From assembly GCA_028281985.1 (NCBI GenBank), contig JANQIU010000043.1:1-34216 (forward strand): a stretch of DNA of 34,216 nucleotides, written 5' to 3'. A program made the translations under genes and the position numbers. The first letter of the stretch is position 1; each line of letters starts with the position of its first letter. This document shows positions 6,959 to 23,208 of this stretch, one piece after another. The notes below the pieces were generated by a model. The model was given only the letters and a program-made list of their open reading frames with translations, did no database searches and was not told the DNA's origin. Source of the stretch: Alphaproteobacteria bacterium. GTDB lineage: Bacteria > Pseudomonadota > Alphaproteobacteria > DSM-16000 > Inquilinaceae.

Positions 6959-8014
6959 ATGGACGAATCGCTGATCTTCGTCGGTGCCATCGTTCTGCTG
7001 GCGGTGGTCGTGATTGCCATGGGGGTCAAGTCGGTCCCCCAGGGCATGGAATGGACCGTCGAACGTTTCGGCCGCTACACCCGCACGCTGGGACCGGGCC
7101 TGAACGCCATCATCCCTTTCATCGATCGCGTCGGTGCCCGCATCAACATGATGGAAACCGTCCTCGACGTACCGGTTCAGGAAGTCATTACCAAAGACAA
7201 TGCCATGGTCCAGGCCGATGGCGTCATCTTCTACCAGGTGCTGGATGCCGCCAAAGCGGCCTACGAGGTCCGCAACCTGGAACAGGCCACGGTCAACCTG
7301 ACGATGACCAACCTGCGCAGCGTGATGGGGTCGATGGACCTGGATTCCCTGCTGTCGAACCGCGACCTGATCAACGCCCAGCTCATGCGGGCCGTCGACG
7401 AGGCGACCGACCCCTGGGGGGTCAAAGTGACCCGAATCGAGATCCGGGACATTCAGCCGCCGCGCGACCTGGTCGACGCCATGGCGCGCCAGATGAAGGC
7501 CGAGCGCGACCGGCGGGCCGAGATCCTGATCGCGGAAGGCGACCGTCAGGCGCAGATCCTCCGCGCCGAAGGCGCCAAGCAGTCCGCCATCCTGGAAGCG
7601 GAAGGGCGGCGCGAAGCCGCGTTCCGGGACGCCGAAGCCCGCGAACGTTCGGCGGAAGCCGAAGCCAAGGCGACCCAGATGGTCTCAGAGGCCATCGCCG
7701 AGGGCGACATTCAGGCGGTCAACTACTTCGTGGCGACCCGGTATGTGGAAGCGATTCAGTCGCTGGCCTCCGCGCCCAACCAGAAGGTCCTTTTCCTGCC
7801 GCTGGAGGCCTCGTCGGTCATCGGCTCCCTTGGCGGGCTTGCTGAGATCGCCAAGGAGACCTTCGGCGGCAACGGGACCGATACCCCGTCCAGACCGCGG
7901 TCCCGCCGCCCGTCGTCGGGTGAGCGTCCGGCCCAGGATGTGGCGAGCGTTACCGCACCGCCGCGGTCGGCGCCCGATGCCCCTCCGTCCGACGGGTCGC
8001 CCTGGAGCCGGTAG
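6959..8014 (+). CDS. SPFH/Band 7 (stomatin/paraslipin-like) membrane protein
   Basis: N-terminal TM, PQGMEWTVERFGRYTRTLGPGLNAIIPF, MKAERDRRAEILIAEGDRQAQI coiled coil; alternative TTG start at 6956. Confidence 0.94.
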   Translation: MDESLIFVGAIVLLAVVVIAMGVKSVPQGMEWTVERFGRYTRTLGPGLNAIIPFIDRVGARINMMETVLDVPVQEVITKDNAMVQADGVIFYQVLDAAKAAYEVRNLEQATVNLTMTNLRSVMGSMDLDSLLSNRDLINAQLMRAVDEATDPWGVKVTRIEIRDIQPPRDLVDAMARQMKAERDRRAEILIAEGDRQAQILRAEGAKQSAILEAEGRREAAFRDAEARERSAEAEAKATQMVSEAIAEGDIQAVNYFVATRYVEAIQSLASAPNQKVLFLPLEASSVIGSLGGLAEIAKETFGGNGTDTPSRPRSRRPSSGERPAQDVASVTAPPRSAPDAPPSDGSPWSR

Positions 8015-8017
8015 CCC

Positions 8018-8458
8018 ATGCCCCAGATCGTCTTCTGGTACTGGTGGGTCGCGGCCGCCCTGCTGGTCGTCCTGGAGGTGTTCATCCCCGGCAACGTGCT
8101 GGTGTGGCTGGGCGTGTCCGCCGGCTTGGTCGGGTTCGCCGCGCTGGTGGTCCCGGAGATGCCGTCGTCGGTCGCTCTGGTCCTGTTCGCAATCCTGGCG
8201 GTCTCCTCGGTCCTGACGGCCCGGTTCTACATCCGGCGCCAGCAGAAGCCGACGGACCACCCGGCCCTGAACCGCCGAGCCCAACAGATGGTTGGACGGA
8301 CGGTCGAACTGGTGGAGCCCATCCGCGGCGGTTTCGGCCGCGTCCGGATCGGCGACAGCCTGTGGGTCGTCCGCGGCGACGATCGCGACGCAGGCATGTC
8401 CGTGCGCGTCGTAGCGACGGCCGGCACGGATCTGTTGGTTGAACCAGCCGACGTCTAA
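8018..8458 (+). CDS. NfeD family protein
   Basis: TM segments plus C-terminal beta domain (GRTVELVEPIRGGFGRVRIGDSLWVVRGDD); directly follows the SPFH gene. Confidence 0.9.
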   Translation: MPQIVFWYWWVAAALLVVLEVFIPGNVLVWLGVSAGLVGFAALVVPEMPSSVALVLFAILAVSSVLTARFYIRRQQKPTDHPALNRRAQQMVGRTVELVEPIRGGFGRVRIGDSLWVVRGDDRDAGMSVRVVATAGTDLLVEPADV

Positions 8459-8525
8459 GAACCGCCCACCGCTAGCGCGACCGCCCCTTCGCCTTATCGC
8501 AAATTCTTGTCGAGCGGGCCGACGG

Positions 8526-9434
8526 TTAGAACGAGTAGCGCAGCCCAATTCCAGTGAAGAACCGATCGTCCAGTTCTTCGGCGCTGACCCCTTCGGAGAA
8601 ACCCTGTTCCGGCCGGCTGTAGGTTCCGGACAGCGTCAAATCCAGATCGAAGTCGAAACTCAAGGTAAAGCCAAGCGACGCCGCGAAATCGGCCTCATCC
8701 TGACCGGGCTCCAACACCGTGAAGCCGGTGGGCCCGAGTCGGTCCTCGCGAACCCCGACCAGCGTGTCCGTCCGCGACGGCGCAAGCAACTGCGCGGCGA
8801 CGCCGGTGGTCAGGCGAATGTCCTCGCCCAGGCGTGTCGTGTACCCGATGCCGAGATCGGCGCTGGTCTCGGAGTCCAGGCCGCTGACATCGCCCCGAAC
8901 CCGCAGCTCGGCGGCAAAATCGCCCCCATCGTAGCGTAGAAAGCCGCCCAACTGGGTGGTCTCGGCTTCCTCACCGGACAGGATCGCGCCGGTGCCGCCG
9001 CCTTCGGCGCTCGGGACGCTGACCACCGGTCCGACCGACAGTCCGCCGAACCGCATCGCCTCCACGCCAATGTCGACCCCACCGGTCAGTCCGACATCGC
9101 CGAAGGACGACAGGATGTCCCGATTCCGCAAGAAAACGGGTGCGCCCGAACTGGCGAGTTCCTCAATGCCGGGTGCCGAACCGACGACATAGCGCGGAGC
9201 GGTCGGATCCTCGGCACTGATCGCAATATCGCTTGCGGACTCGGACTGGGCACCGGCAACCGTCGAAGCAAGCAGAACCGCGAATCCCAAGCCGGCGCCA
9301 AAAGCGCGAATCTTTGAGACACCGCTCAACAAGCCGGTCTCCAAGACCTTCGACCTCCGCTCTGCTCCGAAGCGCTGCACTGCTGCTAAGGGTTCTAAGA
9401 ACCCTACGCGGTATATGGGATTGGCGCACGACAA
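8526..9434 (-). CDS. MipA/OmpV-like outer-membrane protein
   Basis: Signal-like segment, ILSSFGDVGLTGGVDIGVEAMRFGG, alternating beta strands, terminal F (GIGLRYSF). Start uncertain: listed start is TTG and no clear ATG precedes the signal peptide. Confidence 0.72.
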   Translation of the reverse strand: MSCANPIYRVGFLEPLAAVQRFGAERRSKVLETGLLSGVSKIRAFGAGLGFAVLLASTVAGAQSESASDIAISAEDPTAPRYVVGSAPGIEELASSGAPVFLRNRDILSSFGDVGLTGGVDIGVEAMRFGGLSVGPVVSVPSAEGGGTGAILSGEEAETTQLGGFLRYDGGDFAAELRVRGDVSGLDSETSADLGIGYTTRLGEDIRLTTGVAAQLLAPSRTDTLVGVREDRLGPTGFTVLEPGQDEADFAASLGFTLSFDFDLDLTLSGTYSRPEQGFSEGVSAEELDDRFFTGIGLRYSF

Positions 9435-9662
9435 AAAAAGTGCGGCAACCCAACAGTTAGCGTAACACGAACGAAGCCCCTTCGCTATTGCTGCAATGCA
9501 ACAGTCGGCGAAAAGTGCGCTTACGCCTCACTCCAAGCTAAACGGCCCGGGTTACAAAAACATTTACCATATTGAAGTAAAGACGGCGGCATTGTCGGTC
9601 GGCGACGGGCTCCGGACGCGGCGTTCACTTGATGCCGGCGTCGACGGGCCCCATCGGGCCGG

Positions 9663-11027
9663 ATGGATTGGATGGATAGCGCGGCGCTGGCTACTGAAGA
9701 CCTGTTTATCGACCAGCTGACGCTTGAAGCCATGGCCGGCCAGCACGAGCGGTTCCTCAGCGGTCGCGACGGCGGACAGCGGCTCAATCTGGCCTTGCGC
9801 GTCGGCAAGGGCCTTCGGTTCGACAACATGGAGCTGTCCGACGCCGAATTGCGGGGCGCCCGTCTGGAACAGTGCAGCTTCGTCGGCGCGCGCATGCTGC
9901 GCGCCAATCTGTTCGGCGCGGATCTGCGATATGCCGATATGCGCGACAGCAACCTGTCGCATGCCGACCTTCGCGGGGCCATGCTGCGGGGGGCAAATCT
10001 GGAAAACGCGACGCTGGTCGAAGCGGATGCGCGCAGCGGCGATCTGGTGCGGCGACTGCGCGGCGGCGCGCTGCAACGCATCAACGCCGATAACGAGACC
10101 GGCCTTCCCTCCGCGAACATGCGGGGTGTCGATCTGACCAGCGCCAAGCTGTCTTCCCAGACCTTGCGGGCAACCGACCTGACCAACGCCATCCTCCGGA
10201 AGGCTAATCTGAGCGGCGCCGACCTGTCCTACTGCACGCTTCGGGGGGTCCAGCTCGACGGCGCCGATATGAGCGGCGCCAACCTCAGCCACTGCGTGCT
10301 GCACGGGGCGATGCTGCGTGGGGCGGTGCTGACCGATGCCGAAATGGACAATGCCGACCTGAACGCCTCGGTCTTCGACCAATCCCTTCTGGCCGAATGC
10401 AATACCACCACGGCGCTCCTGCCCCAGCGCCTGGATCGGCTCGACAGGCCTTTGCGCGAGGTGCTGGAGGGGCATCGCGGCTGGATCCAGTCCATGGCGC
10501 ATGAGGGGGCGCGCGCCGACTTCTCCGGGTTCGATCTGTCCGGCCAGGACCTGCGCGGCTTCGAGTTGTCCGCCGCACAGTTCTCCCGGGCGCTCATGGT
10601 CGGCACCCAGTTCAGCGGCGCCTCCTTGTCCATGGCCCAGTTCGACCACGCCAACGGACTCGACGCCGATTTCGCGCACGCCAATGTCCGTGGCGCGAAC
10701 CTTCAGGGCGCCACCCTGAACCGTGCGGTGTTCCGCTATCTGCGGGCGGATGCGGTGCCCATCGTCGGCAGCCGCAACACCATCTGGCCCACCAACTTCT
10801 CGCGGGCGATCCTTGACGGCGCCAGCTTCGAGGAAGGGTCCCTGGTGCGGGCCGACTTCACCCAGTCGTCCCTGCGGTCGGCGGACTTCCGGGGTGCACG
10901 GCTGGTGCGCGCCAGCTTCCTCGACGCCGATCTGACCGGTGCCGATTTCCGCGGCGCCGACGTCCTGCATGCCGATTTCCGTGGGGCGATCGGCTTCGAT
11001 CCACTATCGATTGAGGATGCGGTGTGA
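9663..11027 (+). CDS. Pentapeptide-repeat protein with two repeat blocks
   Basis: Tandem A(D/N)LxG-type repeats (ADLRGAMLRGANLENATL; ADFRGARLVRASFLDADLTGADFRGADVLHADFRGA). Confidence 0.93.
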   Translation: MDWMDSAALATEDLFIDQLTLEAMAGQHERFLSGRDGGQRLNLALRVGKGLRFDNMELSDAELRGARLEQCSFVGARMLRANLFGADLRYADMRDSNLSHADLRGAMLRGANLENATLVEADARSGDLVRRLRGGALQRINADNETGLPSANMRGVDLTSAKLSSQTLRATDLTNAILRKANLSGADLSYCTLRGVQLDGADMSGANLSHCVLHGAMLRGAVLTDAEMDNADLNASVFDQSLLAECNTTTALLPQRLDRLDRPLREVLEGHRGWIQSMAHEGARADFSGFDLSGQDLRGFELSAAQFSRALMVGTQFSGASLSMAQFDHANGLDADFAHANVRGANLQGATLNRAVFRYLRADAVPIVGSRNTIWPTNFSRAILDGASFEEGSLVRADFTQSSLRSADFRGARLVRASFLDADLTGADFRGADVLHADFRGAIGFDPLSIEDAV

Positions 11028-21472: not shown

Positions 21473-22396
21473 ATGGTCGTTCGAGTCTTTTGGAGCATGC
21501 TCGGCCTGCTGACCGCGCATCTCGCGACCGGGTCTGCCTGGGCGCAGACCACGCCTTCCGACGTCCTGCGACACGTCGAGGCGATGGCGCAGCAGGTCGC
21601 CTTGTATCGCTTCGCCGACGGTATCGATCCGGATCTGCCTGAGGTGACGGCGGACGACATCAGGATGCCGCGCCACGTCCTCCAACAGGCCCGGATCGTC
21701 TACCGGAGGATTGAGATGCTGCGTTGGCTGAACGGACTGGAGACGGAACCGCTGTCACCGGTCCCGCCACAGGAGATCCGGCCTGCCGATGTCCTGGCCG
21801 TCGTGGAGCGAGCCCGCGCGGCACTGGCCGATCTGGCACCGGTCTACGGGGTCCCCGCCGTGACCAATCTCCCGGAAGGCCGCACACCGGTCGAACCGAA
21901 GGATGTCATGGCGGCCCTGCAGTCGCTGTCTCAAGGTCTGGACGATCTGGGCCTACCGGACATTGTTCCAAACGACGTGTTCAGGATCGCACACGCGATG
22001 CGCGTCCACGCCGACGGCCTGGCGGAGGCTCGCGGGGTCGAAGTTCCTGCCTTGCCCCACACGGCCGACCAGAGACAACCCGCGGATGTCTTCGAAGCGG
22101 GACTGCTCTTGCTGGAAGAGCTTCAGGCGTTTGACGATGCCACGGGCAACTATCTGCCGGGCGGCGTTGCGGCCATCGCGCGCCCATCCGGGCGCGTCGA
22201 TCCGTCGGACGTGATCAGGCTGCTGGAGCTTGTCCTTGCCGACATCTACAGCGTGTCCGTGGCGCTGGGCGACGAACGGTGGCTCGAAGACCCGGCACCC
22301 CAGGTCGGGCGAACCCCGGCGGATGTGTTCGACGAGGTGAGCCGCACCCGAATGATCGTCGTCGCGCTGACCGCCAGCGCGCAAGGATTACCGTGA
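21473..22396 (+). CDS. Secreted protein with eight degenerate P-x-[DH]-V repeats, function unknown
   Basis: Signal peptide MVVRVFWSMLGLLTAHLATGSAWAQ; repeats TPSDVLR, MPRHVLQ, RPADVLA, EPKDVMA, VPNDVFR, QPADVFE, DPSDVIR, TPADVFD, each followed by a helical segment. Confidence 0.8.
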   Translation: MVVRVFWSMLGLLTAHLATGSAWAQTTPSDVLRHVEAMAQQVALYRFADGIDPDLPEVTADDIRMPRHVLQQARIVYRRIEMLRWLNGLETEPLSPVPPQEIRPADVLAVVERARAALADLAPVYGVPAVTNLPEGRTPVEPKDVMAALQSLSQGLDDLGLPDIVPNDVFRIAHAMRVHADGLAEARGVEVPALPHTADQRQPADVFEAGLLLLEELQAFDDATGNYLPGGVAAIARPSGRVDPSDVIRLLELVLADIYSVSVALGDERWLEDPAPQVGRTPADVFDEVSRTRMIVVALTASAQGLP

Positions 22397-23208
22397 TGCG
22401 CCGGTTGGGTATGGAGGCGCGGGCCATCATTCCGACCGCGCCGATGACGCTGATGATCGTCCCGCTGCTGGCCCTTGCGATCGTCGCCTTCAAGTTGACG
22501 GAGTCGATCAGCAACTCCGTGATGGACAGCCTCGGTGAAGTCGACTCAGAGGCAGCACGGGCTCTGTCTGCCACGGAAGCGATCGTGGTTCTCCAGGGGG
22601 CGAATGCCGAACTGGTGGCAACCCTCGCTCAGGTATCACAGATCCATCAGTCGGCGTTGCTGGGCAACGATCCTGCCGCCACCGGAGACGTTCGTGCCGC
22701 CCGAGCGAGACTGACCGCGTCCAGCAACGCCCTGGCGACATCGCTGACCGGACTGGGCAGGGTGCGCGAGGCCTTGGCATCCCACCCGGCAACCGCCCAT
22801 GCGGAAGTCCGGCGCATGATGGGCTTCGCCGAGCGGGGCGCGACCATCGTACCCCGGGTTGTGTCGCTGTTCGTTGAAGCCAACGAACGGACCCTGGGGC
22901 GCCTTGAAACGGGCGAACCGGACGCCGCCCGCGCCAACTTCCTCTTCGAAGAACGCGCGCGGCTGGAGGCGGTGACCCACCGCGTCGGCCGGCAGGTGGA
23001 GGTGCTGGAGAACCTGGCCCGACAGGTCTCGGCGATCGAGGCCGGGCAAGTGAGCGACATCATCGCCACGGCATCGCAGCGTGCGACCAGTCGACTTTGG
23101 ATCGGAGCCATCGCCGCCGCCCTGATCATCGCGGTCGTCGTCGGCCTGGCCCTGCGAACCGTCCGGCGGGCGCGCGCGCCCAAGACGGTGCCGCAGGCAC
23201 GGCGCTGA
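22396..23208 (+). CDS. Two-TM chemoreceptor/sensor-like protein lacking an output domain
   Basis: TM near N-terminus (APMTLMIVPLLALAIVAFKL), long helical periplasmic-type region, TM near C-terminus (LWIGAIAAALIIAVVVGLAL), then ends; ATG overlaps preceding stop (TGATG). Confidence 0.78.
   Translation: MRRLGMEARAIIPTAPMTLMIVPLLALAIVAFKLTESISNSVMDSLGEVDSEAARALSATEAIVVLQGANAELVATLAQVSQIHQSALLGNDPAATGDVRAARARLTASSNALATSLTGLGRVREALASHPATAHAEVRRMMGFAERGATIVPRVVSLFVEANERTLGRLETGEPDAARANFLFEERARLEAVTHRVGRQVEVLENLARQVSAIEAGQVSDIIATASQRATSRLWIGAIAAALIIAVVVGLALRTVRRARAPKTVPQARR

Follow-up and report, generated by a model that had tools for sequence, protein, structure and literature searches.

A conserved gene pair of a putative secreted helical repeat protein and a chemoreceptor sensor module lacking its output half in Alphaproteobacteria

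In bacteria, a periplasmic protein can work together with a membrane receptor having a helical sensor, as in TorT-TorS and XylFII-LytS. Chemoreceptors (MCPs) contain a half composed of a transmembrane segment, a periplasmic sensor and a second transmembrane segment, as well as a HAMP domain and an MCP signalling domain. In Corynebacterium glutamicum, the all-helical membrane receptor GlnX with its four transmembrane segments relays to a separate kinase, PknG; its partner GlnH, a lipoprotein, belongs to the periplasmic binding proteins (PMC9769921). Tls of E. coli B2 strains is a chemoreceptor-like protein that acts outside the chemotaxis pathway and sequesters FlhDC (PMC12623472).

The pair considered here, Orf1 and Orf2, is located in a window of 34,216 nucleotides (the whole stretch of DNA analysed, contig JANQIU010000043.1) belonging to a fragmented alphaproteobacterial assembly of 361 contigs, which is 86% complete. 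Orf2 is similar to MCPs in its membrane-sensor-membrane half, which is homologous to that of the MCPs accompanying Orf1 relatives, but the HAMP and signalling domains of MCPs are both absent from it. By analogy, GlnH-GlnX-PknG is the nearest documented logic for the pair, as both systems have an extracytoplasmic partner and an all-helical receptor (predicted in the case of Orf2) with no catalytic output domain; GlnX has four transmembrane segments against two in Orf2, and the likeness is one of logic only, no sequence relation or membership being claimed. The XylFII-LytS complex 5xsj was a weak Foldseek match to Orf2, whereas Orf1 appears to differ from partners of the TorT/XylFII type, since a low-confidence model predicts it to be all-helical and Pfam solute-binding-protein profiles gave no match above the cut-off to it or to seven of its relatives. 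Tls resembles Orf2 as a chemoreceptor-like protein and differs in the sequestration of FlhDC; no co-encoded secreted partner is named in the abstract of that article (PMC12623472).

Orf1 (21,473–22,396, forward strand, as all features of the pair) is an open frame from ATG to TGA for a putative secreted P-x-D-V helical protein of 307 residues, whose family was established by profile search. Residues 1–24 (21,473–21,544) look by eye like a signal peptide with possible cleavage between SAWA and Q, and the relatives keep a hydrophobic start. Orf2 (22,396–23,208, 270 residues) begins within the overlap TGATG (22,394–22,398), where the stop of Orf1 and the start of Orf2 have one base in common; this overlap, reported in the sequence-only reading, was confirmed, and it is preceded by AAGGA inside Orf1 (22,383–22,387), a possible ribosome binding site for Orf2. 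On the 5′ side lie mreB, mreC, mreD, the gene of a PBP2-type transpeptidase (mrdA) and rodA, directly downstream of which the pair stands, and on the 3′ side, on the opposite strand, there are genes of an apt-like phosphoribosyltransferase and a phosphorylase.

A signal peptide and eight degenerate repeat units had been proposed for Orf1, and the motif P-x-[DH]-V-[LFMI] was indeed found eight times, at residues 28, 66, 104, 142, 166, 203, 244 and 282. Shuffled versions of the mature protein contained on average 0.06 and at most 3 motifs, and none of 20,000 shuffles reached eight, so the series is not a product of chance. The spacing, 38-38-38-24-37-41-38, fits that of the family, which is nearly constant (about 38-38-38-24-37/38-40/44-38). 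In the AlphaFold model of Orf1, which is of low confidence (pLDDT 62), a helix starts at each motif proline or within one residue of it; S/T-P-x-D is a classic helix N-cap, and this explains the motif. The same low-confidence model, examined for an alpha/beta two-lobe fold of the solute-binding-protein type, is all-helical. Comparison of the N-terminal and C-terminal halves over the family by hhalign gave a probability of 99.6% (E 7e-24), and repeats i and i+4 are the most alike (the best of 24 pairings). Orf1 consists of a four-helix unit in two tandem copies, which accounts for its fixed repeat spacing and refines the initial description. The N-terminal copy (21,548–21,949; repeats 1–4, motif prolines at 21,554, 21,668, 21,782 and 21,896) was delimited by hhalign and the model helices, and the C-terminal one (21,950–22,381; repeats 5–8, prolines at 21,968, 22,079, 22,202 and 22,316) by these and the family spacing.

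In family f208, the architecture of Orf1 is doubled again to about 615–632 residues; such relatives (L111:3632-5527, L112:5993-7840 and L114:5672-7570) stand beside hybrid kinases, and an Hpt domain was found in L111 by Pfam. The called frame of another relative (L133:6163-7596, 477 residues) is extended at its N-terminus, its start site being uncertain.

Searches of Pfam and NCBIfam gave nothing above the cut-off for Orf1, Orf2 or seven Orf1 relatives, and the earlier view of the proteins as uncharacterised was upheld; the Orf1 family is "uncatalogued" in the sense of absence from these two collections only. Profile searches of the PDB produced no match, and Foldseek matched nothing to the low-confidence Orf1 model. 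The predicted structure of Orf2, a long helical bundle, matched only helical bundles, every E-value being above 0.001. The pair was unmatched in the plasmids and viral contigs searched, and the Orf1 family is undescribed in the open-licence papers searched. Three weak matches (L008–L010) were dropped because they were located in frames of unrelated genes.

Orf2 contains two hydrophobic segments, separated by some 200 residues. The first (about residues 15–33; 22,438–22,494) was placed by hydrophobicity and alignment and the second (23,098–23,163) by alignment with MCP relatives; between them lies a predicted periplasmic helical sensor domain (22,495–23,097), assigned from alignments and from a weak Foldseek similarity to sensor domains of the helical-bundle type, and the protein ends 14 residues past the second segment. 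A profile of MCP sensor halves from four genomes (G050, G675, G637 and G438; window excluded) matches Orf2 from the first membrane segment to the second with an E-value of 5e-23, which bears out the earlier description of a sensor half stopping after its second membrane segment. The stop coincides with the start of HAMP in the aligned MCP relatives, and NFLFEERAR in the sensor domain corresponds to the conserved NxxFEExxR of the aligned MCP partners. Pfam found no HAMP after the second segment, and the MCP signalling domain PF00015 is absent from Orf2; a six-frame search for it was empty on the contig of Orf2 and on that of the sister genome described below. Only 15 bases separate Orf2 from the end of the convergent apt-like gene, which together with the empty searches leaves no room for an MCP remnant. 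Judged from its sequence, Orf2 is the sensor half of an alphaproteobacterial MCP whose output has been lost. MCP domain matches number 20 in the source genome, which also encodes CheW-domain proteins, so the truncation does not reflect a loss of chemosensing. A full-length receptor with the sensor domain of Orf2 was not found in this genome (86% complete), and the MCP loci retrieved from the source genome, the sister and G050 hold no second Orf1-like or Orf2-like protein.

The pair is also present in the sister genome G010 (Rhodospirillaceae MAG HKST-UBA02, same family), with an ATGA overlap at the same junction and a second protein that also terminates just after its second membrane segment. 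The output-less state is known from these two genomes only, both being fragmented assemblies. Orf1 evolves more slowly (63–67% identity between window and sister) than Orf2 (50%). Values of pN/pS, 0.62 for Orf2 and 0.51 and 0.44 for the two parts into which Orf1 was divided, indicate that both are under some purifying selection, and a truncated pair kept under such selection at 50–67% identity is neither a sequencing error nor a fresh wreck. Conservation between the two genomes does not extend to Orf2's short cytoplasmic tail, which therefore offers no clear output interface. In another alphaproteobacterial MAG, G050, the gene after an Orf1 homologue of 30% identity encodes a full-length MCP that carries both the HAMP and the signalling domain. 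The Orf1 tree nests both output-less members within the alphaproteobacterial MCP-linked clade (support 100/97; together with G637 and G438, 99/97), and consequently the loss of the output half is a derived state.

Among 60 relatives of the source genome, only 2 contain Orf1 homologues. A three-row Orf1 profile gave matches in 30 of 399 Pseudomonadota genomes, about 27 of which were accepted and three weak ones excluded, and an improved profile added six further accepted genomes in the order of G637; L135–L137 (local E 4e-6 to 3e-5) were excluded from the counts. Orf1 is itself matched over nearly its full length (E 1e-57) by a profile built from 24 other family members, from which window and sister were left out. 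In each of the 33 Orf1 relatives whose flanks were long enough for the check (window and sister excluded; genes called by a simple script), the gene next to it, in the same orientation, encodes a two-segment membrane receptor. These receptors comprise 13 MCPs and 20 histidine kinases; their outputs were mostly assigned by a sequence motif, with Pfam applied to a subset, and one kinase (L122), truncated by a contig end, was assigned from its membrane-segment pattern alone. As genes for MCPs and kinases amount to a few per cent of all genes, chance cannot explain such constancy; the neighbourhood check was strongly favourable to the proposal of a conserved pair, in which a probable periplasmic partner stands beside a membrane receptor. 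Where starts are clear, the two genes are mostly within about 35 bp of each other, and the Orf1 relative comes first in most loci (the MCP is first in G406, G409 and G412). Pfam showed HAMP and MCPsignal domains in MCP neighbours of this subset and, in a kinase neighbour, a PF21623 sensor with HAMP, HisKA, HATPase and receiver domains; PF21623 sensors occur in further members. An apparent exception, G934, proved to be an artefact of gene calling, the MCP lying on the strand of Orf1 beneath a longer antisense frame.

Orf1 is best read as a periplasmic co-sensor or adaptor, given its constant adjacency to receptors of differing output and its signal-peptide-like N-terminus. In our opinion, it is fairly probable that Orf1 serves as a co-sensor in the periplasm for Orf2, a sensor module that has lost the MCP output and acts laterally on another membrane partner. 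The ancestral state is a pair of Orf1 and a full-length chemoreceptor, such as persists in other Alphaproteobacteria, and the HAMP and methyl-accepting signalling half was lost in a shared ancestor of the source genome and the sister. We infer that Orf1 is secreted to the periplasm. There it probably either binds a ligand or senses its surroundings, and attaches to the Orf2 helical bundle. The complex could then act sideways on another membrane receptor or kinase, as GlnH-GlnX does on PknG, so that Orf2 may signal through another protein. However, Orf1 relatives accompany receptors with differing sensor domains, and a single shared docking surface is therefore not assured.

Since Orf2 lacks an output and has a short, unconserved tail, and since the genome yielded no full-length receptor that shares its sensor, lateral action is favoured, with docking as the main rival. 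According to the latter, which we regard as unlikely, Orf2 is a mere membrane anchor or docking platform, and Orf1 acts locally by ligand binding, buffering or handover with no signal passing via Orf2. The absence of an output domain and of a conserved cytoplasmic tail, together with the slower evolution of Orf1, agrees with this, but Orf2 descends from a signalling receptor and has kept the FEERAR core motif and the helical bundle. It is quite improbable that Orf2 serves as a decoy dampening chemotaxis, either in mixed dimers or arrays with other chemoreceptors or by taking the ligand of Orf1: MCPs pair via helical bundles and the genome offers 20 MCP domain matches, but the search of the 86% complete genome, which gave no same-sensor full-length receptor, speaks against it. 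Very improbable is a decaying remnant, with the receptor output gone and the pair drifting to loss; although pN/pS is moderately high (0.44–0.62) and the pair is absent from most sampled relatives, two genera keep both frames intact and share the end point, and a start/stop overlap has been retained. Finally, the suggested envelope role, in which the pair serves cell-wall synthesis by virtue of its place on the same strand directly after mreBCD-mrdA-rodA with no terminator-like site between, is hardly credible and was not supported, because mre/rodA are absent from the vicinity in those relatives whose loci were read gene by gene (the neighbouring genes of the two nearest encode a metallo-beta-lactamase-fold protein or a DNA methyltransferase) and the constant neighbour is a receptor.

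Returning to Orf1 as a co-sensor and Orf2 as its laterally acting module, the pair suggests an unrecognised way of environmental sensing. To our knowledge, many bacterial receptors are without a known ligand, and a secreted partner, encoded beside a receptor in every case tested, both MCPs and histidine kinases, would be the missing half of such receptors. A partner of the Orf1 type could explain why some isolated sensor domains bind nothing in vitro, and the output-less pair provides a natural experiment on signalling by a receptor module devoid of a signalling domain of its own. A broader proposal, put forward tentatively and with somewhat less than even confidence, is that Orf1 represents an unrecognised and widespread class of periplasmic co-sensors, built as a duplicated four-helix unit, which serve receptors of chemotaxis as well as relays of hybrid kinases and perhaps enzymes of c-di-GMP turnover, Orf2 of the window, which has no output domain, signalling via another membrane protein.

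Several other genes were observed near Orf1 relatives. A 348-residue protein with two CHASE3 domains and two transmembrane segments, which stops right after the second of them (L115:5108-6154 and L118:7156-8202), is encoded directly upstream of an Orf1 relative and is a second, unrelated output-less sensor beside the family. A CheB-CheR fusion, identified by Pfam, follows a hybrid kinase (L115:11160-12839), and genes of similar size (about 553–581 residues) occupy the same position in many other kinase-type loci, their identity being given by size and place only. In L132, a GGDEF-EAL protein with two N-terminal transmembrane segments (7175-10981) flanks the Orf1 relative opposite the MCP side, which suggests a third kind of output for the Orf1 family.
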